A stretch of 64,000 bases of DNA, from the NCBI RefSeq assembly GCF_022758145.1, contig NZ_JAJVDH010000003.1:496001-560000 (forward strand). Direction: 5' to 3'. Under the pieces are notes generated by a model, which was not told the DNA's origin, did not search any database, and saw only the letters and a program-made list of their open reading frames with translations. The translations under genes and the position numbers were made by a program. Numbering within the stretch: the first letter of the stretch is position 1; each line of letters opens with the position of its first letter. This document shows positions 1-64,000 of the stretch, piece after piece. This DNA comes from Pontibacter vulgaris (GTDB lineage Bacteria > Bacteroidota > Bacteroidia > Cytophagales > Hymenobacteraceae).

Positions 1-555
1 GCTCATTACTTTTGCCAGCACCAGTGGGGCCAGAATGCCTAACATACCTTGCACCATTTGCGGCGATATACCAGCATTTTTAAACATATCGCCAAAACCA
101 CTCTTATTCATAAATGCCTGTGATGTAGGATCTTCACCTTGCTTCTGTGCTTCGTCGGCTTTATTAACATATTGGTCTAATATACTGTACTGATTCTGAT
201 CAATGCCCAGGTAATCGGCAATTTCCTGGATGCGTTTTTGTTCATCTGCTGTATACTTACCATCGGCTTTGGCAAAACTGATAATATCTGTTACAAACGT
301 AAACCGCAACTGGCTCTGCTTTAGCTGGTCAAGGCATTTTTGCAGACTGATCTGGGAAGGGTTCCTTGCAATCTGGGTCAGCTCCTGCTGCAGGTTTTCG
401 GGCAGTTCTGCTGCCTCACTCATCACCTCCAGAAACTCAAGTTCTTCGTCAGATGCATGCCCGTCGGCAGAGGCCAAGGTAGCCATGGCACCAAAATAAG
501 CCCCTTTTTCTTGTATGGTATAGTCTTTTAATAATGTAGTTTGTTCTTGTTCCAT
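1..555 (-). CDS. TerB-like (tellurite-resistance TerB fold) protein, 3' end outside window
   Basis: The reading frame starts with ATG at 555 and stays open to base 1, giving 185 codons with no stop, so the C-terminus lies outside the window. The N-terminus (MEQEQTTLLKDYTIQEKG) leads into AYFGAMATLASADGHASDEEL and later ISFAKADGKYTADEQKRI. These are two acidic helix-loop segments typical of the TerB fold, where Asp/Glu residues may bind metal. The end of the visible part (GMLGILAPLVLAKVM) is hydrophobic. The function is unknown; TerB-like proteins are linked to stress responses, but no ter operon is visible here. A terminator for the upstream gene lies just before it, so it probably has its own promoter. 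Confidence 0.6.
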   Translation of the reverse strand, partial: MEQEQTTLLKDYTIQEKGAYFGAMATLASADGHASDEELEFLEVMSEAAELPENLQQELTQIARNPSQISLQKCLDQLKQSQLRFTFVTDIISFAKADGKYTADEQKRIQEIADYLGIDQNQYSILDQYVNKADEAQKQGEDPTSQAFMNKSGFGDMFKNAGISPQMVQGMLGILAPLVLAKVMS

Positions 556-647
556 TAGCTTTCAGATGTATAGTTTGGTTCTTATTAACGAACTGTTTGG
601 CAGCAGGTTAAAGTTACCAAACGGATATTAAGCGGCCTAGTAACAAT

Positions 648-680
648 AAAGCCTGTGCGCTATTTTAGCGCACAGGCTTT
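648..680. terminator. Rho-independent terminator-like hairpin
   Basis: A perfect 15-bp stem (AAAGCCTGTGCGCTA, with its complement at 666-680) closes a 3-nt loop. It lies downstream of the minus-strand PP-loop gene ending at 729, in the right place to end that transcript. The right arm runs into TTATACTT, a copy of the abundant octamer. Confidence 0.85.
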
Positions 681-728
681 ATACTTTATTTTACATCCTG
701 ATTATCAGGCGAATAATAAATTTATACT

Positions 729-1505
729 TTAAGCTGACATAAAGCTTACCAGCATAGTAGCTTGTTGCAGCGTTTTCTTCAGGTTAGGCTTCATTTTTAC
801 CTCGAAAAAGTTGCGAGCCCGGCTTACCATTGGCAGGCGGTGCGACATACCATCTTCTACCACAATGCGGCAAGGCATGCAAACGCCGCACGGAATACCA
901 ATTTTTGTAGGCTTGTGGCAGAACCAGGTTTTGTTGAGTACATGTATAAACCCATGCTTAGTGGCAATGGCTTTCATATCAAGTTTTGTAAGCTCAATAA
1001 TAGGCCATCTGAAGCAGTTGAAAAGTATAACATCCGGATTCAGCGGCTGGCGGGCCAGGCGGTAAGTTGTTTTGTCGTCAGGGTTTTCGCGCTCCAGAAA
1101 CGGCCTGATATTGCGCCATACAAAGTTATTCTGGCGTGCTTCAATAGAAAGCTCCAGGTCATTTATGCCGAACTCAGCGGCCATGCGGGCAATCCATTCA
1201 TACTGTATGCCCAGGCGCTCTTTGGTAGCCATGCGCCAGTATTGTTGTGTAATAGTATCGTTAGGCTGTATGCTTTCTTTTTTTACAATTTTGGTAGGCA
1301 ACATCAGTTTAGCTTCCGCTGGCCAGTTACTTTTAACAAGCCTACGGATCTTTTCCATTGTTTTAAGCTCAACCGGCGTCGACTTGCGGTTGTTATCGAT
1401 AATATAATAGGTTTGCACCTCTTTTTTCTCAAGGAGGAGCAGTTGAAGCAATCTGAAAGTAGAATCCCAACCACTAGTCCATAGCATATTCACAGGCTTG
1501 CTCAT
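729..1505 (-). CDS. QueC-like PP-loop ATPase (adenine nucleotide alpha-hydrolase superfamily)
   Basis: This 258-aa protein begins with a PP-loop, SGWDST at residues 11-16. It is one residue shorter than the SGGxDS(S/T) of QueC. A four-cysteine cluster follows at C196, C206, C209 and C212 (CGVCMPC), the same arrangement as the zinc site of QueC, the 7-cyano-7-deazaguanine synthase. ATP-dependent activation of a substrate carboxylate or carbonyl is the likely chemistry. No queD, queE or queF homologue is next to it, and the altered PP-loop argues against simply calling it QueC. It stands alone between a terminator and 430 bp of AT-rich DNA. QueC-like proteins also occur in some defence systems, but nothing nearby supports that here. 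Confidence 0.6.
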   Translation of the reverse strand: MSKPVNMLWTSGWDSTFRLLQLLLLEKKEVQTYYIIDNNRKSTPVELKTMEKIRRLVKSNWPAEAKLMLPTKIVKKESIQPNDTITQQYWRMATKERLGIQYEWIARMAAEFGINDLELSIEARQNNFVWRNIRPFLERENPDDKTTYRLARQPLNPDVILFNCFRWPIIELTKLDMKAIATKHGFIHVLNKTWFCHKPTKIGIPCGVCMPCRIVVEDGMSHRLPMVSRARNFFEVKMKPNLKKTLQQATMLVSFMSA

Positions 1506-3456: not shown

Positions 3457-3508
3457 TCTTATATCTTATTCTTGGGGGTCTATTTTATACTTTACGCTAC
3501 AAAACAAA

Positions 3509-5995: not shown

Positions 5996-6908
5996 GATGT
6001 TATCTTCCGTGAATTTTTATCTGAAACTTCTGCAGTTTTTATACTTAGCTGCTTTGTTTTAAAACTTTATATTTTATTTAACCCAGTTCCGGCTTTCTCT
6101 ATGTTCCCTTATCAAATCCTGAAACTAACCTATCACTAAGCTAATTAGCGTCAGGCAAGGTAGTATTCACATGCTGGTTACCTGTAATACAGAAACAGAG
6201 ACAAGGGTGATTTGCCAGCTATAACACGCACCTTATACTCAGGCGCTGGTTTTTATGCCGTTCCGAATGCTGTTGGGGGTATAATCTGATTTATGGTTAG
6301 TAAAGTTTGTTTCATGCTGAAAGTAAAAATGCCTTCGCTAACCCGCCAAAGCGGATAGCCAATAATCTGAATACTGAATTATATATTTTAACCCTATAGG
6401 TATGGGTATAAAGCGGAACATAATTGTTAATGTCTTTTAGTACAGCCTCGTTGGCTGGCTCTATACCTTGCGTGTAATTTCTGGGATCGAGTTTGTGGGT
6501 ACAAAAGATAAGTAGCCACTCCGGTTAACTTCCGGAACCAGGCCATGCACGGATTTTACGTTCTGTAACTACCTTGCCAGCCAAATTTATGGGGTTCCTG
6601 TTTTCCGGTGCATTCTATTACGGGTTCACTTAACTTTCTGTTGGTTAAGTCACTCCCTTTTTTTCCAAATTTCCGTCAATTGCTTATTTAAACTACCTTT
6701 TCAACCCAAAACACACTGACAATCAGTACCTAATAAATATTAAAAATTTCTAATGATAACATAATTTGCTATGCCTATACTTCTCTGATGCTGGTAAGTA
6801 TAAGTAGGGGAGCCTGCTTAAGATAATGGCAGAAAAAAGTATTGGTTTGGGGAGAGCGTAGGTATTACCTTATATTTAGGAAGTAAACCAAAGTATAAGT
6901 ATAAACCC
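5996..6908. other. 913-bp intergenic region, longest in the window
   Basis: The region separates two divergent genes (GT4 on minus, GNAT on plus). I find no convincing reading frame, known RNA motif or strong hairpin. The GC content around 6130-6660 is close to that of coding DNA, so a decayed gene or an unrecognised RNA cannot be excluded. It ends with a tandem AAGTATAAGTATAA at 6891-6904, five bases before the GNAT start codon. Confidence 0.5.
6847..6878 (+). promoter_or_regulatory. Candidate promoter of GNAT gene
   Basis: TTG at 6847-6849 is followed after 21 bp by TATATTTA at 6871-6878, one mismatch from the Bacteroidota -7 consensus TAnnTTTG. The predicted transcript would start about 24 bp before the ATG. 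Confidence 0.4.
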
Positions 6909-7508
6909 ATGAATTTCGGTCAGGATATTATTTTAGAGGATAACCGCGTATTGCTGAGGCCGCTTCGGCTTACGGATGCTGCCAAACTGCAACCAATGGC
7001 CCTGGATGAAGATATCTGGAAGTATACCGTAACCAGAATTGGAAACGAACAGGAGCTGCAGCAATGGGCCGCCGAAGCAGAACGTAACAGGCGGGAAAAC
7101 CAGCGTTATACTTTTGTTATACTTGATAAAGAGACAGATACACTGGCTGGTAGCACAAGTTATGGGAACATATCGGTTGCAGATAAACGCCTCGAAATTG
7201 GCTGGACCTGGCTGGGAAAACCCTACAGAGGAAGCGGGCTGAACAGGCATTGCAAATTCTTGCTGCTCTCTTATGCTTTTGATGTACTGCAGTTTGAGCG
7301 GGTAGAACTAAAGACTGATGTGCTAAACCTGCGCTCGCGAAAGGCAATGTTAAAAATGGGAGCAACCGAAGAGGGCATACTGCGCAGCCATACCCAGATG
7401 CACGATGGCCGCCGCCGCGACACTATATTTTACAGTATACTACGGCACGAATGGCCCAAAATCAGGCAAACAGTTTTTCAGGATCTGCATTTCAAAAACA
7501 AAGTATAA
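6909..7508 (+). CDS. GNAT family N-acetyltransferase (RimJ/RimL type)
   Basis: This 199-aa protein has the RimJ/RimL-like opening LEDNRVLLRPLRLTDAAKL and the core EIGWTWLGKPYRGSGLNRHCKFLLLSYAF. That segment supplies the acetyl-CoA pyrophosphate-binding loop, a variant of Q/RxxGxG/A. It then has RVELKTDVLNLRSRKAMLKMGATEEGILR, the usual helix and strand of the Acetyltransf_3 family. It should transfer an acetyl group from acetyl-CoA to a protein N-terminus or small amine; the substrate is unknown. The histidine-phosphatase gene follows 54 bp later and is probably cotranscribed. Confidence 0.9.
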   Translation: MNFGQDIILEDNRVLLRPLRLTDAAKLQPMALDEDIWKYTVTRIGNEQELQQWAAEAERNRRENQRYTFVILDKETDTLAGSTSYGNISVADKRLEIGWTWLGKPYRGSGLNRHCKFLLLSYAFDVLQFERVELKTDVLNLRSRKAMLKMGATEEGILRSHTQMHDGRRRDTIFYSILRHEWPKIRQTVFQDLHFKNKV

Positions 7509-43381: not shown

Positions 43382-43404
43382 ACGGTAGATTTATCAATAA
43401 TTAA

Positions 43405-43445: not shown

Positions 43446-43448
43446 TTT

Positions 43449-44594: not shown

Positions 44595-44595
44595 T

Positions 44596-45372: not shown

Positions 45373-45731
45373 ACTTTAATTCTATTGTAGGCATTTAAAA
45401 AAGACTCTTTTGCTTCTTTAGGAAAGGGTAAGCTATTCGGAAACCTTTCAAAAACAAATATAGTGGAAAGAGAAGGATTTAATTCCTGTACGAGTTCATC
45501 AAACTGAGCCATCCATACATCATAATGGGCTATAAGCTGTAAGGCATGTACACTTTGCTCATCATCAAAGATTCCTAAGCTTGTTTCAAGCTGCTGATAG
45601 ATTCTATCATTTGCCTTTCTAATACAAGAAGCGTAGAGGAAGATCTTCTCTCTTAGATAGCTTGCATAGGCATTGTCAGCCCTCTTAAACTGATAATACA
45701 GCTCTTTTAAAACGATAGAATTATCACTCAT
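45369..45731 (-). CDS. Small protein of unknown function between formyltransferase and PGT
   Basis: This 120-aa predicted cytoplasmic protein is mostly helical, with a charged and aromatic N-terminus (KELYYQFKRADNAYASYLREK) and no membrane segment, signal peptide or enzyme motif. I do not recognise it. Its ATG overlaps the end of the PGT gene by 8 bp and its stop overlaps the formyltransferase start by 4 bp (ATGA), so all three are translationally coupled. That makes a role in the formyl-sugar or initiation step plausible, perhaps as a partner protein. Confidence 0.6.
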   Translation of the reverse strand: MSDNSIVLKELYYQFKRADNAYASYLREKIFLYASCIRKANDRIYQQLETSLGIFDDEQSVHALQLIAHYDVWMAQFDELVQELNPSLSTIFVFERFPNSLPFPKEAKESFLNAYNRIKV

Positions 45732-47521: not shown

Positions 47522-47536
47522 AAAGAAAATGGCAAG

Positions 47537-50401: not shown

Positions 50402-51812
50402 ATTTTATACTGAACCGCTTTATTATAAAACTATCAATCACGAGAGTCCAAACAATGGCTTTCAAAGGAGTTAAAATATTTGATCTATTTAGATAGAGTG
50501 CAACTGTAATTAAAATTAAATATACTACAACCACCCTATGTTTCTTGTTGTATAAAGCATTAAACGTTAAAAAGGAAATAAAATATCCAAAAACAATCAT
50601 TATAAAAGCTGTGCCAACTATCCCCACATTTATATACAAGTCAGCAATAATTTCTGAGCCTTCACCATACTGAAAGAAGACCCCTTGACTTTGTATAGTG
50701 AAGAAATAAGATGATGAAAGATATATTATTGGCAAATTTGTTAAAGATATATAAGCACTACTACCAAACGGGACAACCCCTACAAGGTCAGAAACTATAG
50801 TTGCACCATTTAAATAAGGATGCTTTTCAGGCACAATATCTAAAGCTGAATAGAGAATTCTTACACTAGATGCTAATTCATCTGTGGGATTGAAATCCTT
50901 TTCATTGTCTTGCAAATTTTTAAATCCTTCAGAGAGTATATTTGTACTTCTCTGAGAAGCGTCTCGTGTTCTACCTTCTCGAATGATTGTAAATAAAATT
51001 GACCCTATCAAGATCAATGAGATGAGAAAGCCAAATGATACATGTTTTTGATAAATTGAATAACCACCTAATATCAAAAGTACTAATTCCATTAATGGGC
51101 CTCGATCGCCTGCTTTTAAAAACATTAAACAATAAACAAATAATAGGATAAGCAACGTTTTGTTATAAAATAAGATACTTACTATATTTTGTTTATTGAG
51201 TTTAATTCCTTTGCTGTTTATAAAAAAGTATATAATCCTTAGATATAAAATAATTCTTAAAAATAAAAAAATATAAGTCGCCCCTGCACCCCAATTTTCT
51301 GTTCCAGAATAGCTGCCACTTAAAAAATCCTTCCCAACTAAACCTATAAAAAATATCATTAAAACCCAAAGCATCGCATCTATTGCTTTTGTCTTAACAT
51401 AAAAGTCTTTACTTTTTATTATTATATTAAATCTTCTTAAAAAAAGATTATATCCTATCAACCAAAGCAACAACAAAATCGAACTTAACCATGTCGCAAA
51501 ATTAACTACATGTTTATTAACCCAAATAAAGCTAGGTTTTTCAGGCTCTATACCTAAGCTTGCTAGAAACGGAATTTGGAAATGAACAATTAGAAAGCCG
51601 ATTAAAAATAAAACATCAAATCTTACCCACGTTTTATAGTATTTTCTAGTTGTATAGAAAAACCAGAAAACATTAACAACACAAATAATTGATAAAAATC
51701 CTACTTTTTCTTCATTAAAAACTTCATTCCTTCCGGGGGTTAAATATAGTACTACTATAAGTGATATAACTAAAAGCAAATATTTATTAAAAAGATATAA
51801 TTTATTTTGCAT
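50394..51812 (-). CDS. wzy: Polysaccharide polymerase (Wzy-like)
   Basis: This 472-aa membrane protein has about eleven hydrophobic segments and a large periplasmic loop containing EGRTRDASQRSTNI and a further region ending YLSSSYFFTIQSQGVFFQYGEGSE. Size, topology and position next to wzx and GT genes identify it as the O-antigen or capsule polymerase that joins repeat units in the periplasm. Sequence conservation in this family is low, so assignment rests on topology and context; the REGRTRDA loop supports the O-antigen polysaccharide polymerase family. Confidence 0.8.
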   Translation of the reverse strand: MQNKLYLFNKYLLLVISLIVVLYLTPGRNEVFNEEKVGFLSIICVVNVFWFFYTTRKYYKTWVRFDVLFLIGFLIVHFQIPFLASLGIEPEKPSFIWVNKHVVNFATWLSSILLLLWLIGYNLFLRRFNIIIKSKDFYVKTKAIDAMLWVLMIFFIGLVGKDFLSGSYSGTENWGAGATYIFLFLRIILYLRIIYFFINSKGIKLNKQNIVSILFYNKTLLILLFVYCLMFLKAGDRGPLMELVLLILGGYSIYQKHVSFGFLISLILIGSILFTIIREGRTRDASQRSTNILSEGFKNLQDNEKDFNPTDELASSVRILYSALDIVPEKHPYLNGATIVSDLVGVVPFGSSAYISLTNLPIIYLSSSYFFTIQSQGVFFQYGEGSEIIADLYINVGIVGTAFIMIVFGYFISFLTFNALYNKKHRVVVVYLILITVALYLNRSNILTPLKAIVWTLVIDSFIIKRFSIKYE

Positions 51813-51829
51813 TATTTTCTTTACAATTT

Positions 51830-52348
51830 TTATTTCTTCATAAATTGCTTATCTTGTAAAGCCAATAGATAATTCCGCTTTTCTACATATCCCATCATCT
51901 TTGTTCCAGTATTGAATTTAGAAAGCTTTCTCTTTAAATCTTTTACTTCTCCTACTACCCTACCAGGATTACCGACAACAACACAATTGTTTTCAATACT
52001 TCTTGTAACAATTGTACCCGCCCCAATTACAACATTATCCCCAATACTTACACCGGGCATAATCATTGAACAGTTACCAATGTAAACATTGTTACCAACT
52101 TTGATTTTCCCAAAGCAATCGAAAGAGGGATGTTCTTCTCTAAATACCCATCCACCACCATGTGTAAAAAATCGTACATCACTAGTTATCTGCACATGGT
52201 TACCAATTTCAATTAAATAAGGTTCTGATCCAAAGTACCGAGTGGCTATAGAACATTTATCTCCAATTTTTACACCAATATGCCTAGCATATTGTTCGTC
52301 TGTCCACAGAATTTTTCTATATAAATTAATTACCCTTTGCCAAATCAT
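51830..52348 (-). CDS. Hexapeptide-repeat acyltransferase
   Basis: This 172-aa protein has hexapeptide repeats (KIGDKCSIATRYFG, EIGNHVQITSDVRFF, KVGNNVYIGNCSMIMPGVSIGDNVVIGAGTIVTR), a His in RFFTHGGGW in the place of the catalytic histidine, and CVVVGNPGRVVG at the end. It probably O- or N-acetylates a sugar of the surface glycan. It overlaps the AsnB gene by 23 bp. Confidence 0.88.
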   Translation of the reverse strand: MIWQRVINLYRKILWTDEQYARHIGVKIGDKCSIATRYFGSEPYLIEIGNHVQITSDVRFFTHGGGWVFREEHPSFDCFGKIKVGNNVYIGNCSMIMPGVSIGDNVVIGAGTIVTRSIENNCVVVGNPGRVVGEVKDLKRKLSKFNTGTKMMGYVEKRNYLLALQDKQFMKK

Positions 52349-54155
52349 TTATATTAACTTTTTTATACCACTTGGCCAAAACGTACAATCGCCATATATT
52401 TATAGAATAATCATTTTTACCTAGTAAATGTTTATTTAATTGTTCCTTGAACTTTTCTATATCAAGATTTGAAACTGTTCTAAGGAACTTATCATTTAAC
52501 TCTTTTAATACATCGTCTCTTAAATCTTCTCTTATCCATTTACCTAAAGGTATTGCAAATCCCTTTTTGGGTTGATTGAAAACATCTTGAGGTATGTACT
52601 CCTTCAATATATCTTTAAGTATTTTTTTCTTTGATCCTTTGTTATATCTATAATTTATTGGTAAGCTTCTAGCAAATTCTATTATTCTATAATCTAAAAA
52701 TGGGCTCCTAACTTCTACTGAATAAGCCATGCTACCACGATCAACCTTTACATTGCTATCATTTTCTAACCATAATTTTATATTTAGGTCAGCAGCTCTT
52801 TGCTTTGGACTATGGGACAATTTTTTATATTGTTCATAATATTTAAGCCAACTATTATTTTTATTCTTATGAACACTGCTAAAACCAGTGAATATTTTAT
52901 ATGCAAGTTCATCACTATTCTTTGAGCTTAATATTTCACTAATAGTCTCTGGTCTGCCTCCAAAAATTTTGTACCATGGGATCCTCGCCAAAAACCTCCT
53001 TAACAAATGAGGCACAAACTGAATTTTTTCAAATTTATTTATTAAATCAAAATGAATATAGCCTAAAAAGCTTTCGTCTCCACCATCACCTGATAAAGCT
53101 ACAGTAACATTTTCTTTCGTAACTGAGTTTAATAAAAGAGTTGGAAGAGCAGACGAATCCGCAAAAGGCTCATCAAACACTTGAAAAAATTTTGGAAGAA
53201 GCTCTAATATTTCATTCGGTCTACACTTCGTTTTTGTATGTCTACTACCAATTATTTTGCTATATTCTTCTGCAACTTTACTTTCATCATAATTTTTATC
53301 TTCAAACCCAATTGTATATGTTTGAATTGGATTATCAGATAACTTGCTAGCGAGACTGGCAACCAATGCTGAATCAATACCACCTGACAAAAAAGCTCCA
53401 ATTGGCACATCAGATTGCATCCTAATTTTCACAGCATCTTTTAAAAGCTCATGTAACTCTCTCTTTGCTTCTTCATAAGAAATTGAATTTTTATGCTCAA
53501 CTTTCTTAAGATTCCAATATTCTATTATATTGAAGCTCTTAGATTCTATATCTATTTCCATATAGTTTCCAGGAGACAACTTGTATACGTCCTTTAATAT
53601 TGAAAATGGACTTGGTACATATCCGCAATCTAAATAGATAGATACAGCTTCGTCAGAAACTTTACTATTTTTACTTATTAATGGACCTAATTGACTACAA
53701 ATCTCAAATTCACCGTCTTTCCAGTAATAATAAAATGGCTTTACACCTACCCTATCTCTTGCTGCAAAAATCTTGTGTTTTTCTATATCATAGATAGCAA
53801 AAGCAAACATTCCATTTAACTTAGCAAGGATTTGCTTTCCCCATTCCTGGTAACCTATTATCAAAACTTCTGTATCACTTTCTGTTTCAAATTGATATCC
53901 AATTTCAGATAATTCATTCCTAATATCCTTAAAATTATATATCTCCCCATTAAAGACAATACTTAGATTTTTATATCGATATGGTTGATTTGATCTAGTG
54001 TCTAAGTCTAATATTGATAATCTTAAATGCCCAAGACTAATTTTATTAATCTTTTCATAGCCTAGGTTATCAGGCCCTCTATATTCAATTAAATTTAATT
54101 TCTCGATAACTTTTGATTTTTCAAAAGGTATATTAGTTAGATATATTCCACACAT
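52326..54155 (-). CDS. Asparagine synthase-like amidotransferase (glutamine-hydrolysing)
   Basis: This 609-aa enzyme has the N-terminal glutaminase with nucleophile C2 (MCGIYLTN), FNGEIYNFKDIR and SDTEVLIIGY, and a C-terminal synthetase with the PP-loop LSGGIDSALVA. The length fits AsnB. Inside polysaccharide loci such enzymes amidate uronic acids; here UDP-GalNAcA made by the WbpO and WbpP homologues is the natural target, as for WbpS-type proteins in Pseudomonas O-antigen clusters. A plain asparagine synthetase role cannot be excluded from sequence alone. Confidence 0.88.
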   Translation of the reverse strand: MCGIYLTNIPFEKSKVIEKLNLIEYRGPDNLGYEKINKISLGHLRLSILDLDTRSNQPYRYKNLSIVFNGEIYNFKDIRNELSEIGYQFETESDTEVLIIGYQEWGKQILAKLNGMFAFAIYDIEKHKIFAARDRVGVKPFYYYWKDGEFEICSQLGPLISKNSKVSDEAVSIYLDCGYVPSPFSILKDVYKLSPGNYMEIDIESKSFNIIEYWNLKKVEHKNSISYEEAKRELHELLKDAVKIRMQSDVPIGAFLSGGIDSALVASLASKLSDNPIQTYTIGFEDKNYDESKVAEEYSKIIGSRHTKTKCRPNEILELLPKFFQVFDEPFADSSALPTLLLNSVTKENVTVALSGDGGDESFLGYIHFDLINKFEKIQFVPHLLRRFLARIPWYKIFGGRPETISEILSSKNSDELAYKIFTGFSSVHKNKNNSWLKYYEQYKKLSHSPKQRAADLNIKLWLENDSNVKVDRGSMAYSVEVRSPFLDYRIIEFARSLPINYRYNKGSKKKILKDILKEYIPQDVFNQPKKGFAIPLGKWIREDLRDDVLKELNDKFLRTVSNLDIEKFKEQLNKHLLGKNDYSINIWRLYVLAKWYKKVNINDLAKGN

Positions 54156-54233
54156 ACTTTGAAATTTTAACTTATTTTAAACTTATCAATTAAGCTTGAA
54201 ATAAATCCATTAATCTTAATAAATTTAAAAAGG

Positions 54234-55490
54234 TTATTTGCTTTTACTTTCCTTATATAACTTATAAATAATTACTGTTAAGTACATCACTAGCATAAGT
54301 ATTTCGTTAGTGATTATGACATAGCATATTTTGCTCAAATTTATTGTCTCATGTCCATTTATCCAGAGAAGTAGAAATAAAGTCGCGAAACCTATAATAT
54401 GAATTGGTAATTTAACCCAATCAATTCTCATGCTAGTAATTGCAGTACCTATTAAATTATAGGAAAATGAAAATGCAGTTCCAATTAATATTAAAATTAA
54501 AATATCATTATATTTTGAATATGTTTCTGTATAGATAACCTTCAATATTGTGTCTCCCCAAAACAAGAATGGGATTAACAAAATAAGTCCAGCACTAAAT
54601 CCAAAAACCACTAATCGAAATACTTTTAAAACAAATTCCTTATATCTTTCATTAATATAGCTATTAGCTAAACTAACTATTTGTACCTGAGCAACCGAAG
54701 AAACAACTTGTCCTCCGATATTTTTAATATACATCAATGCTCCGAATATGCTTAACTCACTTAACCCTATTTTTTTTTCAATAAACAATCTAGGATAATT
54801 AAAATAATAATTATTTAGTAGTAATGTAAAAAAAACAGGCCCACCAAGAATCAAAAAGCTTCGCCAATCATTTTTTGATAAGCTTGTAAAAGAAATTTTA
54901 GCAACAAAATTTCTTTTAATTAGCAATTTGCGTTCATAAATAATATAAAAGAGACACCAGACTAATAGATATACAATTAAAATCCCAGTTATATTTTTGA
55001 TAAATATTGAGCAAATTAGAACAACTACAATGCTTGATATTCCTCTAAAAAGTTTTGAAATAGCTATCAAGTCTTGTCTACTTTCTTTATGATAAACTCC
55101 GTGTACTAAATCAATTTGTGATTCAATTACTTTGGAAAAAGCGACAACTATTATAATATTATATATTTCCCTTTTAGCAACTAGAATTAAAATAACAACT
55201 ATTATTATCCCAACAATATTAGTTAAAGTTCTAAATGTCAGATATTGATTAAATCTTTGTTTTCCATTTTTATCAGTGATATAAAAGTATCTTAACTGCA
55301 TATCTAATGCAGCAAAGATTGGCGTCACAAAAGCAAGTGCGTAAATAAAAGCACCAACATCATCCTCTGAATAAGTTTTAATTAATATTAAAAGGATACC
55401 ATATTGACATAAAGAGTATATAGTATTACCAATAAACGCATAACCATAGCTAATTTTATCAATGAGTTTATTTTTTAATGCAAAAATCAA
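54234..55490 (-). CDS. wzx: Oligosaccharide flippase (Wzx-like, MOP family)
   Basis: This 418-aa membrane protein has about twelve hydrophobic segments, with the family opening (LIDKISYGYAFIGNTIYSLCQYGILLILI). It should flip the lipid-linked repeat unit across the inner membrane for the polymerase. It is among the most AT-rich genes of the window and lacks the octamer, in line with acquisition from elsewhere. No other flippase gene is in the locus. Confidence 0.88.
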   Translation of the reverse strand: MIFALKNKLIDKISYGYAFIGNTIYSLCQYGILLILIKTYSEDDVGAFIYALAFVTPIFAALDMQLRYFYITDKNGKQRFNQYLTFRTLTNIVGIIIVVILILVAKREIYNIIIVVAFSKVIESQIDLVHGVYHKESRQDLIAISKLFRGISSIVVVLICSIFIKNITGILIVYLLVWCLFYIIYERKLLIKRNFVAKISFTSLSKNDWRSFLILGGPVFFTLLLNNYYFNYPRLFIEKKIGLSELSIFGALMYIKNIGGQVVSSVAQVQIVSLANSYINERYKEFVLKVFRLVVFGFSAGLILLIPFLFWGDTILKVIYTETYSKYNDILILILIGTAFSFSYNLIGTAITSMRIDWVKLPIHIIGFATLFLLLWINGHETINLSKICYVIITNEILMLVMYLTVIIYKLYKESKSK

Positions 55491-55511
55491 ATCTTAACAG
55501 TTTTTGTTGTA

Positions 55512-56492
55512 CTAGATTCCTTTGTAGAAAGTATATGTCAATTTTAAACCTTTGTTGATATCGAATTGCGGGACATACCCAAATAACATTTGCGCTTTTG
55601 TAACATCTGCTAAACTATGCTTTACATCGCCTTTCCGCTCTTCTCTATATTGAGGCTTTAAATTGATACCACCAACTTCATTTACCCTACTCCACAGCAT
55701 ATTTAAAGTTGTCCTTTCCCCAAAAGCAATATTCACTACTTCATGCTGTGTTATATTTACAGCTAATATTGCCTTAATATTAGCCTGAACAGCATTTTCC
55801 ACAAAAGTGAAATCGCGACTAGTCTCACCATCTCCATTTATGAAAGGAGCTTCACCTTTCAAAGCTGATTCAATAAACAAAGGAATTACAGCAGCATATG
55901 GCCCTTTAGGATTTTGCTTTGGACCGAACACATTAAAGTAACGAAGTCCTATAGTATGAAAGTCGTAAGTTCTAGAGAATACATCACCATATAACTCATT
56001 AACATACTTGGTGATAGCATAAGGAGAAAGTGGCCTTCCAATTTTATCTTCTACCTTAGGTAAACCCGGATGATCGCCGTAGGTGCTGGAGCTGGCAGCG
56101 TATACCAGTCGTTTCACTCCTGCATCGCGGGCTGCCACTAACATGTTCAGGAAACCACTTACGTTTACATCGTTGCTGGTTATAGGATCATTGATAGAAC
56201 GAGGCACAGAACCAAGAGCTGCCTGGTGACTTACATAATCTATTCCCTCCAATGCCTTCCTGCAAGTCTCCAGGTCTCGAATATCACCTTCTATTAATTC
56301 GAAAGCAGGGTTAGATTTAAACTCCTCTATGTTTGCATGTGAGCCAGTCGCAAAATTGTCCAGTACTCGTACTTTGCCTGCACCATATTTAAGCAGGTAC
56401 TCTACTATATTAGAACCTATAAAACCGGCGCCGCCAGTAACTAAGAATCTAAATTGGCTAAGGTCTTCGGAATGATATTGGGTTTCGTACAC
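55512..56492 (-). CDS. UDP-GlcNAc/UDP-GlcNAcA C4-epimerase (WbpP/TviC-like)
   Basis: This 326-aa extended SDR has NAD motif TGGAGFIG (19-26), then ASSSTYGDHPGLPKVED and the catalytic Y158 and K162 in SPYAITK. The DHPGLPK stretch is typical of WbpP-type epimerases that interconvert UDP-GlcNAc and UDP-GalNAc. With the dehydrogenase at 56688 it would supply UDP-GalNAcA. Base composition changes within the gene: the first half is near the chromosome average, the second half matches the AT-rich core. A 195-bp gap with REP-like repeats separates it from the dehydrogenase gene. Confidence 0.94.
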   Translation of the reverse strand: MYETQYHSEDLSQFRFLVTGGAGFIGSNIVEYLLKYGAGKVRVLDNFATGSHANIEEFKSNPAFELIEGDIRDLETCRKALEGIDYVSHQAALGSVPRSINDPITSNDVNVSGFLNMLVAARDAGVKRLVYAASSSTYGDHPGLPKVEDKIGRPLSPYAITKYVNELYGDVFSRTYDFHTIGLRYFNVFGPKQNPKGPYAAVIPLFIESALKGEAPFINGDGETSRDFTFVENAVQANIKAILAVNITQHEVVNIAFGERTTLNMLWSRVNEVGGINLKPQYREERKGDVKHSLADVTKAQMLFGYVPQFDINKGLKLTYTFYKGI

Positions 56493-56532
56493 TTCGGGGA
56501 GAATTATGAATGATGAATTAGGAATAATGAAT

Positions 56533-56581
56533 GGGTGGTATTCAAACCACCCCTAACCCCTCCTTGTCTAAGGAGGGGAAT
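56533..56581 (+). repeat. REP-like unit with two hairpins (CACCCC family)
   Basis: GGGTGGT pairs with ACCACCC (56546-56552), then CCCCTCCTT (56557-56565) pairs with AAGGAGGGG (56570-56578). It is related to the unit at 34628-34665. It lies inside the polysaccharide operon, between the epimerase and dehydrogenase genes. Confidence 0.75.
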
Positions 56582-56590
56582 TTATTCTGG

Positions 56591-56665
56591 TGTCATTTCG
56601 AATGTAATGAGAAATCTGGGAGCTGTAATTTGATTTTCAGATTTCTCACTACATTCGAAATGACA
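56591..56665. repeat. REP-like inverted pair (TGTCATTTCGA family)
   Basis: A 28-base unit (56591-56618, starting TGTCATTTCGAATG) is repeated in inverted orientation at 56638-56665, with 27 of 28 bases complementary and a 19-nt loop. This BIME-like pair would fold into a long hairpin. Single decayed units are at 19962 and 35000. It may stabilise or attenuate the wza-wzc-wbpO part of the operon transcript. Confidence 0.85.
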
Positions 56666-56687
56666 ATTATTACATCTTTATGATTAA

Positions 56688-57992
56688 TTATAGCCTTGCG
56701 TCAGCTAGTTCTTTTGGAAGTACGCCTTTTACATCGTAGATCACGGCATTTTCTTTGCAGAGCTTGCTTAGATCAAGATCTTTGAACTCATCATGAGATA
56801 CTGCAAGTATAACAGCATCGCAGTTGCTAGTGCCGTTTAGCTCTTTTACCGAGTCCCAACCATACTCATGCTTCACTTCGGCAGGTTCAGCCCATGGGTC
56901 GTAAATCGTGATGTTGGTATCATAACCTTTCAGCGTTTGCAGGATATCTACAACTTTAGTGTTGCGCACATCCGGGCAGTTTTCTTTGAAGGTAACGCCC
57001 AGCACCAGGATGTTGGCTCCTTTTACCGGTATATCCTTTTTCACCATTAGTTTGATCACTTCATGTGCCACATATTCGCCCATGCCATCGTTCAGGCGGC
57101 GACCAGCCAGGATAATCTCTGGATGATAGCCTACTTCCTGCGCTTTCTGTGCCAGGTAGTAAGGGTCCACGCCAATACAGTGTCCACCAACCAGACCAGG
57201 TTTAAACTTCAGGAAGTTCCATTTGGTGCCTGCTGCCTGTAATACCTCATCTGTATCTATATCCAGGCGGTTAAAGATCTTTGCCAGCTCATTTACAAAA
57301 GCAATATTAATATCGCGCTGTGCATTCTCGATTACCTTGGCAGCCTCTGCCACCTTTATAGAAGTCGCTTTGTGCGTGCCGGCTACAATAACAGATCTAT
57401 ATAACTGATCTACCTTTTCAGCAGCCTCTGGCGTTGAGCCGGAAGTTATTTTCAGGATCTTGGCAACGGTGTGTTCTTTATCGCCCGGATTAATGCGCTC
57501 AGGGGAATAACCGGCAAAGAAGTCTTCATTAAACTTTAATCCAGAAACGCGCTCCAGCACAGGCACGCATTCATCTTCTGTTACGCCCGGATAAACAGTA
57601 GATTCATATACCACAATGTCGCCGCATTTCAAGACTTTGCCTACAGTTTCGCTGGCTTTGTAAAGTGGCGTCAGGTCAGGGCGATTATGTTTATCTACAG
57701 GGGTAGGTACTGTAATAATAAAGAAATTGCATCCCTGTATTTTCTCCAGTTCCGTTGTGCAATACAAGCCTTTATTTGTAGTGCAGTCCTCTGTGATCAC
57801 GCTTTTCAGCAGATCTTCCGATACTTCCAGGGTATGATCCAGCCCATTATTCAGTTCCTCAACCCTTGCTTTGTTAATATCGAAGCCAAAGGTTTTAAAT
57901 TTTTTGGCAAACTCAACTGCGAGTGGTAGCCCCACATAGCCTAAACCGATTACTGCAATTTTAGCGTTCTCTACTGTAGCTATACCTGACAT
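56688..57992 (-). CDS. UDP-N-acetyl-hexosamine 6-dehydrogenase (WbpO/TviB-like)
   Basis: This 434-aa enzyme has the NAD-binding start [20 protein letters not shown], then [33 protein letters not shown], and the catalytic C272 in [15 protein letters not shown]. These match the WbpO/TviB/WbpA type that oxidises UDP-HexNAc to UDP-HexNAcA in two steps. With the WbpP-like epimerase it should make UDP-GalNAcA. Its GC content is that of the normal chromosome. The gap to Wzc is 47 bp. Confidence 0.94.
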
Positions 57993-58039
57993 ATGATTAT
58001 TATTAACTTGTTTACGTCTAATCTAAAATTAAAAAAGTT

Positions 58040-60409
58040 CTAAACACCTATTCCTACTTTACTTCTAATCTTTTTGTTCCAGGACTTTGTGGTATTATTT
58101 TCTACATCACCGTAGCCATAACCGTAGCCATAACCGTAGCCATAACCGTAGTTGTTTTCTTTCTTAGCATCATTCAGTACTACCATCGGGTGTTTCAGCT
58201 TTTTCTGCTTATAGATATCATCAATAATAGCTACATGGTTCTTATAGGTGTAATTGTAGCGGATAATGTAGATGCTGGAATCAATAAACGGTGCCAGGTT
58301 AAAGGCATCGGCTACCTGCCCTACCGGCGAAGTATCGATTAACACATAATCAAATTTGGACTTCAGTTCTTCCAGCAGTTGCTCTACCCGCTCACTCAGC
58401 ATCAGTTCGGCCGGGTTAGGCGGTACTGGGCCGGAACCGATCACAAACAGGTTCGGCGAAATTTCAGTAGGCTTTACCACATCCTCTATAGAGAGGGCAT
58501 CTGATACTAAGTAATTCGTAATACCAACATCGTTTGTCAGGCCAAGGCTGCGGATCAGGCGTGGCTTTCGGAAGTCGAAACCTAGTATAACCACCTTCTT
58601 ATCGGTAAGCGCCAGGCTTGCGCCAAAGTTAATAGTAAAGAAAGTTTTGCCCTCACCACTGATGCTGGAGGTAACCAGGATTACTTTATTGCTTTTGCCA
58701 GCCGTTGCAAACTGAATGTTTGTGCGGATAAGGCGGAACATCTCGGCTACAGGGCTTCTGCTATCTTCTGTTACGACCAGGGTATTATCAGAATCACTAT
58801 GGTAAATTTCACCCAAAACAGGTGTTTTAGTAGTGCTCTCTACATCTTTGTATTGCTGTACCTTATCGTTCAGCAGGTCTTTTACATATATACCAGCAAA
58901 AGGCACTCCTAACCCTACTAATAATGCCAGCAGGTATATTAATTGCTTTTTAGGCTCTACCGGGAAATCGCCTGCTGTGGCGGCATCAATTACGCGTGAG
59001 TTGGAAACTGTAGCCGCCAGCGATAGCGCTGATTCTTCTCTTTTCTGCAGCAGGTACAGGTACAAGCCCTCCTTTATACTTTGCTGACGCGCAATTTCAA
59101 CCAGTTCCTTTTCAATGGAAGGCACCTCGTTGATCTTAGACTCAAACTGTTCTGAGCTTCTTTGTAGGTTATTACGCGTAATAACCAATCCGCCTTTAAT
59201 GTTGCGCAGGTTCTCCAGCACATTGGCACGCAGGTTGGTAAGTTGCTCGTTAATATTCTGCACAAGCGGGTTATTAAGCTGCGTTGTTCTCAACAGGCGT
59301 TGGCGCTCCAGTTGCAGTTCATTGAATTTAGAGATCAAACTTAATAAGGTGGGGTCTTCGATGTTCAGTGTGCTAGGCACCAAGTCGAACTGGCCGTTTC
59401 TCCTGGAGAGGTAGTTTTCTATAGACTCCAGCACACTGATGCGTATACCAAGATCAGCCAGCTGTTTATTATAATCGCCGGCCTTCTGCAGGTATAAGCT
59501 TGCCTCCGACTTTACATCTGTTACGTTGTTCTGGCGCTTATACTTTTCTACATCTTTTTCCACATCAGAAAGCTCGGTAGTCAGGTAACCCATACGCTCA
59601 TCTATAAATTTTATAGTGCTTGCCGCTATCAGGTTTTTATCTTCTACTTCTTCTGTGTTATAAACTTCGATAAGTTTATTCAATATAGCCTCTCCTTTTG
59701 CCGGAACAGGATCTAACAAACTCAGGCTAAGCACGCTAGCATTTTTATTAACAGGAACTACTATTAATTTTTGATTAAAATCCTCCGAAAGTTTACGTGT
59801 ATCATGGAATTTCACCGTCACTTCACGGCCTTCGGTCGCACTTGCAGCCCCGGCTACAACCGTAAAGGTAGCATAAGGCTTCTGTATCTGCTGGCCGAAC
59901 TGGTGCCTTGTTGTAGTATGGCCGTCTTCTTCAAGCTCAAAGTTGTTATTGCCTTTCAGGTGTACCGTAACTGTTTTGTCAAAGGCAGCCGAATCGAGCT
60001 TGCTGATGATAACTTTAATAGGCGCAGACTGGCCAAAAACTTCCGTACGCTTGATTCTGCCATCCACATAATAACTGGTGTGCAGCGAAAGCTCATTAAA
60101 AACACGATGCATCAGGCTCTTTGCCTTCAGCACCTCTATTTCGTTGTCAATGTTTTTACCTGTTTGAAAAATCTCCAGGTCTTCAAAAACAGCAGCCTCA
60201 GATAAAGATGGTCCCTTTTTGTCATCTTTGATTAGTAAGGTCATGCTTACCTTGTATTGCGGTGTTGTATAGCGCAGGTACAGGAAGGCAATACCCAGGC
60301 ACAATACCACGGCTAAAGCAAACAAATACCAGTAGCGCAGGTACTTGTACAAAATGCCTTTAATATCTATTTGCTCAGACTCTAGCTGAAAAACGTCTTG
60401 CTCGGCCAT
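58040..60409 (-). CDS. wzc: Polysaccharide co-polymerase and tyrosine autokinase (Wzc-like)
   Basis: This 789-aa protein has two membrane helices (about 28-46 and 490-508) around a periplasmic Wzz-type domain with coiled coils (about 270-440). A cytoplasmic BY-kinase domain follows, with Walker A SSISGEGKT (581-589), A' VVILGFDFRKP (606-616) and Walker B YVLIDTSP (688-695). The C-terminal tail holds seven tyrosines, 754-766, alternating with Gly. They are encoded by 3.5 copies of a 12-bp repeat (58109-58150). Autophosphorylation of such tails controls export and chain length. The gene lies 15 bp after wza. Confidence 0.95.
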   Translation of the reverse strand: MAEQDVFQLESEQIDIKGILYKYLRYWYLFALAVVLCLGIAFLYLRYTTPQYKVSMTLLIKDDKKGPSLSEAAVFEDLEIFQTGKNIDNEIEVLKAKSLMHRVFNELSLHTSYYVDGRIKRTEVFGQSAPIKVIISKLDSAAFDKTVTVHLKGNNNFELEEDGHTTTRHQFGQQIQKPYATFTVVAGAASATEGREVTVKFHDTRKLSEDFNQKLIVVPVNKNASVLSLSLLDPVPAKGEAILNKLIEVYNTEEVEDKNLIAASTIKFIDERMGYLTTELSDVEKDVEKYKRQNNVTDVKSEASLYLQKAGDYNKQLADLGIRISVLESIENYLSRRNGQFDLVPSTLNIEDPTLLSLISKFNELQLERQRLLRTTQLNNPLVQNINEQLTNLRANVLENLRNIKGGLVITRNNLQRSSEQFESKINEVPSIEKELVEIARQQSIKEGLYLYLLQKREESALSLAATVSNSRVIDAATAGDFPVEPKKQLIYLLALLVGLGVPFAGIYVKDLLNDKVQQYKDVESTTKTPVLGEIYHSDSDNTLVVTEDSRSPVAEMFRLIRTNIQFATAGKSNKVILVTSSISGEGKTFFTINFGASLALTDKKVVILGFDFRKPRLIRSLGLTNDVGITNYLVSDALSIEDVVKPTEISPNLFVIGSGPVPPNPAELMLSERVEQLLEELKSKFDYVLIDTSPVGQVADAFNLAPFIDSSIYIIRYNYTYKNHVAIIDDIYKQKKLKHPMVVLNDAKKENNYGYGYGYGYGYGYGDVENNTTKSWNKKIRSKVGIGV
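58109..58150 (-). repeat. 12-bp tandem repeat encoding Tyr-Gly tail of Wzc
   Basis: On the minus strand TACGGTTATGGC is repeated three times and followed by TACGGT, all exact. Each unit adds two Tyr-Gly pairs without shifting the frame, so slippage would change the number of tyrosines. Confidence 0.95.
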
Positions 60410-60424
60410 GCCTACAGGTATTGA

Positions 60425-61192
60425 TTAAAGAATTCTCGAAAGTATAATTGCTATTGCAGACATAGTTGCTGCTATAATTGTAGTGTTCCTTGGATTTACA
60501 GTTGCTTGTATTGCCTTGGCTTTATCAGGTTCCACGTACACGATATCATTCTGCTGCAGGTTAAAGTATGGGGAACTTAGTAAGTCTTTGCTATTAAGAT
60601 TAACCCTAACTGTATTTTTAACACCTTCTTTTTCCCTGATGATCAAAACATTCTCGCGTCTGCCAAAAGCTGTCATGTCACCTGCCAGGCCGAGCGCTTC
60701 CAGTATGTTTATCTTATCGTTAGGGATAGTAAAAGTAGAAGGTTTATTGACTTCGCCGATTACTGTTACTTTAAAATTCAGGAAACGAACATTTACGATC
60801 GGATCTTTCAGATAATCTTTAAGCTCAGCAATAATCTTGTTTTTTGCTTCTGCTTTGGTCAGGCCACCAAGTTTTAATTTTCCAACAATCGGAAAATCTA
60901 TGAAGCCATTTTCATCTACCAGGTAGCCTTCGTTTGTTGTACTGGCTGTGGGGTTCAGATTGCTTCCGGTTGGTGTAAGTACTCCTCGGTTAAACAATGC
61001 ATTAGACTCAGGATTCAGGCTACTGATCGTAATACTCAGAAGATCATCTGGTTGAATTCTTGTCTGAGTGCTGTTAAGTGTATCAGAAAAAGCTGCCTGT
61101 TCCTTTAAATCGCTGAAATAAGCAAGGTTTCTGGTTGGACCGCAAGACACAAGAAAAAGAAAACCAAGAAAGTATAAAAGTTTAATCTTCAT
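60425..61192 (-). CDS. wza: Polysaccharide export outer membrane lipoprotein (Wza-like)
   Basis: This 255-aa lipoprotein has a signal peptide ending in the lipobox FLVSC (C17). The polysaccharide-export domain (RIQPDDLLSITISSLNPESNALF) and a SLBB-type segment (KVTVIGEVNKPSTFTIPNDKINILEALGLAG) follow. A C-terminal hydrophobic helix (TTIIAATMSAIAIILSRIL) would span the outer membrane, as in Wza. It should form the outer-membrane export channel with Wzc beneath it. It is the first gene of the polysaccharide operon, so the operon promoter must lie in the 680-bp gap upstream. Confidence 0.95.
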   Translation of the reverse strand: MKIKLLYFLGFLFLVSCGPTRNLAYFSDLKEQAAFSDTLNSTQTRIQPDDLLSITISSLNPESNALFNRGVLTPTGSNLNPTASTTNEGYLVDENGFIDFPIVGKLKLGGLTKAEAKNKIIAELKDYLKDPIVNVRFLNFKVTVIGEVNKPSTFTIPNDKINILEALGLAGDMTAFGRRENVLIIREKEGVKNTVRVNLNSKDLLSSPYFNLQQNDIVYVEPDKAKAIQATVNPRNTTIIAATMSAIAIILSRIL

Positions 61193-61874: not shown

Positions 61875-62774
61875 ATGAAATCAATAAACCCGAAAGAAGT
61901 TAAAACTGCCGAGTTTCATGCTTTATTATTAGGCGCTATTGCGCCCAGGCCGATTGCTTTTGCCAGCACTACCGATGGTGAAGGCAACGTAAACCTGAGC
62001 CCGTTCAGTTTCTTTAACGTGTTCAGTGCCAAGCCTCCCATACTTGTTTTTTCACCTGCCCGGCGTGTACGCGACAACACAAGCAAACACACGTTGGAGA
62101 ATGTGATCAAAACAAAAGAGGTAGTAATCAATATTGCCAATTTTGATATTGTGGAGCAATTATCCTTGGCCAGCACGGAATATGCAGAAGGTATAAATGA
62201 ATTTATAAAATCTGGCCTTACCCCAGAAGCCAGCCAGTTTGTACAACCGCCGCGAGTTAAGGAAGCTCCTGTGGCTTTTGAATGCCGCGTGAATGAAGTA
62301 ATTAGCTTAGGGCCAGAAGGAGGCGCCGGCAACCTCGTAATTTGCGAGGTTTTGCTGATGCATGTAAGTGAGCAGGTCCTGGATGAACATGGTAAGATCA
62401 GCCCTTTTAAATTAGATGCTGTGGCTCGTATGGGTGGCGATTATTACCTGCGCGCAAACGGCGACTGCATTTTCGAGCTTCCAAAGCCAGTTTTAAACAA
62501 AGGAATCGGGGTAGATGCGCTCCCAGATCATATCCGCAACAGTTCTATACTTACCGGGAACAATTTAGGAAGGCTTGGTAATACTGAAGTAATTCCATCT
62601 GAAGAAGATGTGGAAACATATAAATCAGAACCTATGGTAGACTATACATTAAACAAGTATAAAGCGGATACTCCTAAACTAAAGCATGAGTTGGAATTAC
62701 TGGGCAAAAAGCTTTTGGAAGATAACCAGGTACAGGCAGCCTGGAAAGTACTTTTGTTAAGTGGGCAGGTATAA
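61875..62774 (+). CDS. Flavin reductase family protein (FMN-binding split barrel)
   Basis: This 299-aa protein has the flavin-reductase-like start LLLGAIAPRPIAFASTTDGEGNVNLSPFSFFNVFSAKPPILVFSP, including the SPFS and FNVFS FMN contacts, and later TKEVVINIANFDIVEQLSLAS. The domain ends near residue 200; the C-terminal 90 residues are helical and lack a known motif. It should bind FMN and act as a reductase or as part of a two-component oxygenase; no partner oxygenase adjoins. It has no homologue nearby in the same operon. Confidence 0.9.
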   Translation: MKSINPKEVKTAEFHALLLGAIAPRPIAFASTTDGEGNVNLSPFSFFNVFSAKPPILVFSPARRVRDNTSKHTLENVIKTKEVVINIANFDIVEQLSLASTEYAEGINEFIKSGLTPEASQFVQPPRVKEAPVAFECRVNEVISLGPEGGAGNLVICEVLLMHVSEQVLDEHGKISPFKLDAVARMGGDYYLRANGDCIFELPKPVLNKGIGVDALPDHIRNSSILTGNNLGRLGNTEVIPSEEDVETYKSEPMVDYTLNKYKADTPKLKHELELLGKKLLEDNQVQAAWKVLLLSGQV

Positions 62775-62966
62775 ATAGTCGGAACCTATACTCTACAAAG
62801 TATAAATGCTGCAAATTTGAGTGCAGCTGTAATCAGTGACTGTGTGTTTGAGGAGGTGTGTAACTTGTACAAGTTGAAAATTTGCTGATAAAGCAACTCA
62901 CATGTTAAGCTATCGCAAAACTTGAGGTATGCACGGACAAGGTATATTAAGCTCAAATTATCCTCT

Positions 62967-63002
62967 AAAGTATAAAACCCGCTAAGGCGGGTTTTATACT
63001 TT
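62967..63002. terminator. Bidirectional terminator made with the octamer
   Basis: AAAGTATAAAACCCGC pairs perfectly with its complement at 62987-63002 (16 bp) around a TAAG loop. It lies between the convergent flavin-reductase and alanine-dehydrogenase genes and is an inverted pair of AAGTATAA with a GC-rich tip. Confidence 0.95.
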
Positions 63003-63045
63003 ATGGAGGTATAGCTTCTAAAATCTATTGTCTATTGTCTACCGT

Positions 63046-64000
63046 CTAATTTCTTACTGCAATCATCAGCCCAAGCTCCTTATAACGCATTCCGAATTTC
63101 TTGGCAATGTGCGCGTTGGTTAAGCTACCTCTGTAAATATAGACGCCGCTACGGTAATGCTCATTAGTAAACAGCACTTCGTTTATGCCGCCATACTTTG
63201 AGATTTCAGAAAAAATTGGTGTAAATATATTGCTGAGTGCATTAGTCGCCGTTCTGGGCACACGCGAAGCGATGTTTGGTACGCAATAATGTATGATATC
63301 ATACTTGCGGTAAATAGGGCGGCTATGCGAGGTAAGTTCTGATGTTTCGAAACAACCACCCTGGTCTATGCAAACATCAATAATTACGGAGCCTGGGTCC
63401 ATTTGCGCAATTACGCTTTCTTCTACCATGCAGGTAATTTTACCTTCTTCGGCAACAAGTGCCCCAATAACCACATCTGCCTGCTTTATCTCGTTGTAAA
63501 GCACTGTTTTATCGAGCGTAGAAGTAAATATCTGCGAGCCAATGTTGTGCTTCAGGCGGCGAAGTTTGTAAATATGGTTATCAAAAACTTTTACTTCAGC
63601 CCCAAGTCCTAAGGCAGCGCGGGCAGCATATTCGGCTACAGTGCCGGCACCAAGTATAACTACCTTGGATGGTGGCACACCTGTAATTCCGCCAAGTATA
63701 ACCCCTTTGCCATCGTTGCTGCTGCTCAGGTATTCTGCCGCAATCAGCATCACCGTACTTCCGGCAATTTCACTCATGGCACGAACCACAGGTTTAGATT
63801 CTGATTTATCGCGGATCAGCTCAAAAGAAATAGCATTGATTTTTTTTCGGAGCAGCGCATTAATGTAATCTGAGGTAAGATTGCCGAAGTGAAGAGCGGA
63901 GATTAGTGTCTGGCCGGGGCGCAGGTATTCAATTTCGTCGTAAGTTGGAGGCGCTACTTTCAGTATGATATTGGCCTGGTATACTTCATCTATAGAGTAA
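63046..64000 (-). CDS. ald: Alanine dehydrogenase, 5' end outside window
   Basis: The frame is open from the window edge to the stop at 63046, leaving at least 317 codons of the C-terminal part. It contains VRAMSEIAGSTVMLIAAEYL, the NAD-binding loop VVILGAGTVAEYAARAALGLGAEV and DVCIDQGGCFETSELTSH, as in AlaDH/PNT proteins. YSIDEVYQANIILKVAPPT and RPGQTLISALHF at the visible start are also typical. It should convert alanine to pyruvate and ammonia with NAD. An apparent GTG start at 63789 is internal to the protein, since conserved sequence continues upstream. Confidence 0.93.
   Translation of the reverse strand, partial: YSIDEVYQANIILKVAPPTYDEIEYLRPGQTLISALHFGNLTSDYINALLRKKINAISFELIRDKSESKPVVRAMSEIAGSTVMLIAAEYLSSSNDGKGVILGGITGVPPSKVVILGAGTVAEYAARAALGLGAEVKVFDNHIYKLRRLKHNIGSQIFTSTLDKTVLYNEIKQADVVIGALVAEEGKITCMVEESVIAQMDPGSVIIDVCIDQGGCFETSELTSHSRPIYRKYDIIHYCVPNIASRVPRTATNALSNIFTPIFSEISKYGGINEVLFTNEHYRSGVYIYRGSLTNAHIAKKFGMRYKELGLMIAVRN

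Follow-up and report, generated by a model that had tools for sequence, protein, structure and literature searches.

The stretch of DNA analysed here (the window, 64,000 nt) lies on contig 3 of the 4,191,305-base, 36-contig genome of a Pontibacter species (G000) and encodes, among other things, the DNA primase DnaG, SusC/RagA-type receptors and a polysaccharide-type gene cluster (Table 1). The encoded DnaG shares 90% identity with its counterpart in Pontibacter ruber, and the genome is nearest to that species. The subject of this report is a short word, AAGTATAA (read on the opposite strand as TTATACTT), that recurs at high frequency across the window. The sequence-only reading had put the number of exact copies at about 95 by eye, and this observation is confirmed by direct counting, which gives 46 AAGTATAA and 51 TTATACTT, or 97 in total. 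No other 8-mer is as frequent within the window, and a variant with a final G adds 22 copies (13 AAGTATAG and 9 CTATACTT) to bring the total for AAGTATAR to 119.

The excess extends to the genome as a whole. Across its 4.19 Mb there are 6128 copies of the word (2987 AAGTATAA and 3141 TTATACTT) against 177 (86 and 91) of a control with the letters reversed, and in a 464-kb sample, composed of the window and 20 further stretches of G000, 673 copies stand against 35 expected under a second-order Markov model that was built with the word masked. The excess claimed in the sequence-only reading is thereby borne out, and a genome-wide count near the Markov expectation, which it had named as fatal to its own case, is not what was found, the count being far higher. 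No long flank is shared by the copies in the 464-kb sample, and the information is confined to ~9 bases, such that the flanks contribute only the following base (56% A) and, weakly, the preceding base (39% A). One-letter variants are also in excess, by 13.8-fold for G at the last base, 7.8-fold for C at base 3 and 6.2-fold each for G at base 7 and C at the last base, with a smaller excess at bases 1 and 2 and little tolerance at bases 4-6.

Table 1 Features of the window
Position	Strand	Feature	Basis
1..64000		97 AAGTATAA (46 +, 51 -) and 22 AAGTATAG (13 +, 9 -), scattered	counts
6891..6904	+	two overlapping direct copies, AAGTATAAGTATAA	sequence read
7103..7124	-	two direct copies; the second extends 2 bases past the end given by the sequence-only reading	sequence read
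35052..36989	-	dnaG (DNA primase), word-free; marker for placement and for finding relatives	family and sequence comparison
37450..37484		inverted pair of word core, intergenic, terminator-like stem	sequence read
40875..61192	-	polysaccharide-type cluster (PseB-, asparagine synthase-, Wzc-family-like genes)	family matches, synteny
43356..43381		inverted pair, perfect palindrome GTACTTATACTTAAAAGTATAAGTAC	sequence read
62967..63002		inverted pair flanking a GC-rich stem, terminator-like	sequence read

The word is found both within and between genes. With genes taken as open frames of at least 90 codons, picked by length and not from curated annotation, 432 of the 653 classed copies lie wholly within genes, in both directions, and the density is 3.5 per kb between genes as compared with 1.1 per kb within them. 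Intergenic density is highest, at 6.25 per kb, where neighbouring genes converge, and is 3.48 where they are tandem and 2.53 where they diverge. Within coding DNA the copies occupy each of the five stop-free reading positions (93, 77, 56, 114 and 82 copies), and the sixth position, in which the word introduces TAA, holds 10. Shuffling of synonymous codons inside each gene, a procedure that preserves the proteins and the per-gene codon usage, left 46.6 ± 5.5 coding copies (60 shuffles, highest 63) against 423 observed, and the reversed word showed no excess under the same treatment (14 observed against 22). Codon bias therefore fails to explain the word, as had been claimed from the sequence, and the excess cannot be assigned to shared repeats either, since the copies have no long flank in common; these were the two causes that the sequence-only reading had listed as a second way to undo its case.

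The near-balanced orientation described earlier also holds, both in the window (46 against 51) and in the 464-kb sample when divided into ten blocks (nine of 50 kb and one of 14 kb, counted as AAGTATAR), among which the largest imbalance is 55 to 36. No clear strand preference relative to GC skew was observed in either of two further genomes, each sampled as 20 stretches of 20 kb: strand counts are 157/159 at positive and 346/378 at negative skew in G031, and 158/127 and 144/154, respectively, in G021. Five pair sites cited in the sequence-only reading, three inverted and two direct, read as described apart from one end coordinate that was 2 bases short. The proposal that inverted pairs generally serve as terminators was not borne out, in that word pairs spaced 8-60 bp apart in the 464 kb comprise 89 direct and 73 inverted cases, and inverted pairs are therefore not preferred.

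A survey of 50 Pontibacter genomes (including G000) places the word among several dialects, namely AAGTATAR, AACTATAR, AGGTATAG and ATATATAR, that share a TATA(R) core: TATA is common to all of them, R follows in most, and the variable bases precede TATA. A strong word is present in 40 of the 50 genomes (20 with AAGTATAR, 2 mixed, 5 with AACTATAR, 12 with AGGTATAG and 1 with ATATATAR), two more (G103 and G007) are graded weak, and the remaining eight (G002, G024, G025, G026, G028, G034, G097 and G101) have no strong word. Copy numbers of AAGTATAA are 2246-7030 in 19 of 37 same-genus genomes, G000 among them, and a few hundred in the others; the excess of AACTATAG amounts to 6288-8208 copies in its 5 genomes and that of AGGTATAG to 2823-5222 in its 12. 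In G031, 647 AACTATAG were counted against 8 expected, and in G021, 415 AAGTATAA against 9.4. The mixed genomes G027 and G033 hold 2617 and 2002 AACTATAG beside 3911 and 4476 AAGTATAA, P. fetidus of the AACTATAR group also holds 2125 AAGTATAA, and in G000 itself AACTATAG is a minor word (907 copies against 179 reversed). The single ATATATAR genome (G102) has 59 ATATATAA against 8.7 in 120 kb, is poor in AACTATAG and AGGTATAG, and has 1 AAGTATAA in the 20 kb counted, and a weaker word, GGTATAAA/GGTATGGC, is seen in G103.

In the eight word-less genomes AAGTATAA is 1.3- to 3.7-fold over control, and samples of 20-104 kb from each of seven of them (all but G034) were inspected for words of other sequence. 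The word-less genomes measure 5.2-6.5 Mb (n = 8) as compared with 3.8-5.5 Mb for the word-bearing ones (n = 40; Mann-Whitney P 1e-5, in a test that ignores kinship and excludes the two weak genomes). A DnaG tree was built from 29 Pontibacter rows with three outgroup rows, and 16 of its 29 inner branches have good support, with 7 left open. On this tree the dialect labels require 7 changes when 'weak' is treated as a label, and word versus no word requires 3 changes when the weak rows are dropped. The sequence-only reading had proposed a check in related genera, and there the word appears restricted to Pontibacter: in other families of the order AAGTATAA is no more than about a tenth above control in 22 of 22 genomes, and no comparable word was seen in stretches of ~7-22 kb from genera that included Rufibacter, Adhaeribacter, Hymenobacter and Algoriphagus. 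Other repeats were encountered during the survey. A repeat-like CCCTAAAC is conspicuous in L038, a stretch among the other-genus samples, and AATTATGAATTATGAA-type repeats, apparently unrelated to the word, are in excess in P. harenae (L021/L128) and Adhaeribacter rhizoryzae (L042). On contig 1 of G020 (1944098-1946633), AGGTATAG recurs every ~66 bases over 2.5 kb in a manner resembling a CRISPR (clustered regularly interspaced short palindromic repeat) locus or other tandem array.

Individual copies are conserved between species. In eight author-chosen species pairs, with conserved places counted from both genomes, the identical word occupies the aligned place in 246 of 401 cases, as compared with 1490 of 5275 when the letters of the word are scrambled; the double counting makes a Fisher P value for this contrast too small but leaves the rates valid. 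For the window stretch compared with P. ruber, 13 of 25 words are conserved against 42 of 275 controls. Single-letter differences, of which there are 72 with direction not polarised, hit each of the eight positions and include many kinds of substitution. One mutation or repair bias would not readily yield such a pattern.

Word-poor DNA is found on plasmids and in one part of the window. The whole plasmid of P. kalidii (G021) has 4 AAGTATAA in 73.8 kb, which is 19.5-fold below the rest of the genome; the plasmid of P. actiniarum (G020) has 31 in 200 of 204 kb (3.0-fold below) and that of P. akesuensis (G001) has 12 in 100 of 116 kb (5.8-fold below). Within the window, the polysaccharide-type cluster holds 12 of the 119 AAGTATAR, and its coding DNA (19.4 kb) contains 9 words, as compared with 53 in the other 35.0 kb of window coding DNA (Poisson P 1e-5). 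The corresponding site of P. ruber is without this cluster, the genes of both flanks lying within ~5 kb of each other there. A further word-poor stretch was noticed in G031 (L180; contig 1, 700001-720000), with 5 words in 20 kb against the ~50 usual in that genome; judged by eye, its genes look SusC/D-like, ABC-type and DUF262-like.

Genes of a probable transformation pathway were detected in every Pontibacter genome surveyed. According to parts of PMC8459023, Riemerella anatipestifer, another member of the Bacteroidota, cannot be transformed without its genes annotated as ComEC, DprA, ComF and an HhH protein. All 50 Pontibacter genomes have detectable genes of these kinds, namely comEC, dprA, a comEA-like HhH gene (protein length ~310-330 residues) and a ComF-type gene, with the ComF matches below the family's strict cut-off in every genome. 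All four are open in G000. In G022 all four contain frame breaks and stops (L221, L222, L223, L271), and in G009 stops occur in all four and frame breaks in two (L228, L229, L230, L270); the neighbouring genes in these stretches are mostly open. When the 50 genomes were searched for comEC, dprA and comF, the top match was interrupted by stops in G022 and G009 only; the HhH search flags G022, and the early HhH stop of G009 was seen by direct comparison. That all four genes are disrupted together, in two genomes out of 50, is as expected if they act in one pathway, and natural transformation is therefore probably real in Pontibacter. G022 and G009 appear as two natural losses of transformation genes.

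What, then, could maintain thousands of copies of such a word? The excess, the absence of strand preference, the dialects restricted to one genus, the conservation of copies, the scarcity on three plasmids and in the cluster absent from P. ruber, and the competence pathway, whose genes are open in G000, form a pattern that fits a self-recognition tag for the uptake of kin DNA. The sequence-only reading is thus partly supported, in that its likeness to uptake sequences stands and its general use of inverted pairs as terminators does not. We propose, with a probability of about 0.7, that AAGTATAR is this Pontibacter's dialect of a DNA-uptake-type self word. A broader claim, which we favour with somewhat less assurance, is that Pontibacter would hold the first DNA-uptake-sequence system in the Bacteroidota, with a TATA(R)-core word, upstream bases that switch (AAG, AAC, AGG, ATA) and a pilus-independent receptor. 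In such a system, a surface or periplasmic receptor would read TATA(R) together with the dialect bases in front of it, would form part of an uptake apparatus of Bacteroidota type, and would favour the uptake, or the processing, of word-bearing DNA. Transformation and recombination would then raise the copy number because word-bearing alleles would enter more often, and a shift in receptor preference would lead to a change of dialect. Word-less species would either take up DNA with no need of a word or rely on a word not visible in the samples.

Several observations weigh against an uptake role. The eight word-less genomes retain open comEC, dprA, HhH and comF, and therefore the word and the competence genes do not co-vary. 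G022 and G009, in which competence is broken, are still word-rich. The breaks in these two may be too young to show in word counts. In a test for word decay, the near-miss excess per word is 0.238 in G022 against 0.082, 0.179, 0.189 and 0.103 in four same-word genomes, while G009 stands at 0.141 and its pooled relatives at 0.043 (small numbers in both cases). The nearest sister stretches compared are ~19-23% different, which would leave little power to see faster word loss. In G018, which is rich in AACTATAG, the comEC frame is shortened to about 555-561 residues as compared with ~705 in relatives (L161 9360-11027). The minority word AAGTATAA in L029/L030 shows no conservation above control (2/9 and 2/6). 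The plasmids may be recent arrivals. In an ortholog test of 164 kb around the window against 160 kb of P. ruber, genes with a match carry 1.62 words per kb and those without carry 1.51, so a gene's absence from the P. ruber stretch is not by itself a predictor of few words; the majority of the unmatched genes may sit elsewhere in P. ruber. Moreover, dnaG and the SusC/D-type genes of the window, which are not known to be foreign, are also word-poor, and therefore protein constraint matters. A preference for inverted pairs, which is a frequent trait of uptake sequences, is not found in the 464 kb.

The uptake machine and the receptor add to these difficulties. A motor ATPase of the pilus or type II secretion system (PF00437) was not detected in the 50 genomes, in a search that did not extend to pilins and secretin and that scored 31 candidates in most genomes; the matches are stretches of fewer than 70 residues only, and just exceed the cut-off in 3 of 50 genomes. 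For this reason a pilin of the ComP or ComN kind, mounted on the usual machine, probably does not serve as the receptor. No word-linked gene was found near comEC in 15 stretches from 14 genomes, and the comF neighbourhood of G000, read by eye, holds nothing conspicuous. Neither the surroundings of comEC nor DUF5689 supplied a candidate receptor for the word. DUF5689, a domain of the downstream protein in an essential Riemerella pair, was rejected in that role: it occurs in 22 of 50 genomes, in two size classes and with none in G000, and its distribution does not follow that of the word. Competence-broken G022 still has an open gene of the larger class. In 4 of 5 loci viewed, the smaller class has a neighbour that looks SusD-like by eye.

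An alternative hypothesis is that the word is bound by an abundant protein of the nucleoid or of chromosome organisation, or marks DNA as self against a defence nuclease, with dialects that track that protein. The tolerance profile, strict at bases 4-6 and looser at 3 and 7-9, does resemble reading by a protein, and scarcity on plasmids and in the acquired-looking cluster would suit any self mark. However, where a mark reaches thousands of copies and differs in dialect between close relatives, it is, to our knowledge, mainly an uptake word, and no candidate protein was found, none having been searched for; we consider this explanation unlikely. We regard as quite unlikely a process like that of HIP1 (highly iterated palindrome 1), in which DNA modification or mismatch repair would favour the word wherever DNA replicates, with no role in uptake. 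Parts of PMC4390886 describe HIPs as very frequent, strongly over-represented short words with alternates in some relatives, but also as palindromic and linked to methyltransferases, whereas the main Pontibacter words AAGTATAA, AACTATAG, AGGTATAG and ATATATAA are not palindromes. The HIP1 likeness drawn in the sequence-only reading thus holds for frequency and is weaker overall. In addition, single-letter differences at all eight positions, transitions and transversions alike, are unlike the product of one lesion or mismatch type (again with direction not polarised), and plasmids are 3- to 19.5-fold poorer in the word in three genomes, though recent arrival could explain this.

Over-represented octamers of the class of Chi and KOPS (FtsK orienting polar sequences) are also mentioned in parts of PMC4390886, and the word could in principle be a recombination signal or another replication-oriented word of this type. 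This is very unlikely, given that no clear strand bias is apparent in G031 or G021, that the blocks of G000 are near balance, and that copies favour non-coding DNA. Hardly credible at all is an ordinary origin, be it base composition, codon usage, a promoter or terminator role, or the spread of mobile repeats. In favour of it, the word is rich in A and T, and three pairs in the window form terminator-like stems, but such an origin is refuted by the Markov excess, the reversed-word control, the synonymous shuffle and the lack of a long flank. A promoter word was rejected because most copies lie inside genes, in both directions and in all stop-free positions; a terminator role as the cause is not supported by the close pairs, in which inverted ones are not preferred; and dispersed repeats were rejected for want of a long common flank.

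Among known systems, the closest parallel to the proposed self word appears to be the DNA uptake sequence (DUS) dialects of the Neisseriaceae. As described in parts of PMC3630211, the DUS is likewise a short, non-palindromic word with thousands of copies in genic and intergenic DNA. Its dialects vary between species but keep a core (CTG, where Pontibacter has TATA(R)), two of them coexist in Simonsiella as two do in G027 and G033, and some relatives lack an obvious word. The Pontibacter case differs in its word and its phylum, in that inverted pairs are not preferred, and in being known here from sequence alone; moreover, the lack of a detected pilus motor would mean that no ComP system operates on the usual machine. 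This undetected motor is the main difference from both known families of uptake words. The uptake signal sequence (USS) of the Pasteurellaceae also has thousands of copies genome-wide and a core with looser flanks. Its motif is longer, with AT-rich helper segments, and its uptake uses parts of the type IV pilus, whereas in Pontibacter the information is confined to ~9 bases and the motor was not detected.

We know of uptake words only from the Pasteurellaceae and Neisseriaceae. No report of one in Pontibacter or any of the Bacteroidota was found in the open-access literature, a search that leaves subscription papers and preprints outside, and none of the titles inspected among open-access papers that contain the letters AAGTATAA concerns such a word. 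The term 'uptake sequence' is absent from the Riemerella papers PMC8459023 and PMC8383284. These would possibly be the first DNA-uptake sequences with dialects in the Bacteroidota. If this reading is true, the tagging of DNA as self for transformation would have had a further origin, tied to another kind of uptake machine. About fifty species of the genus are sequenced, some sister species lack the word, two have broken competence genes, and strains are in culture, which makes the origin, spread and change of such a word directly testable, and the finding would point to a new DNA receptor in a phylum in which uptake across the outer membrane is poorly understood.

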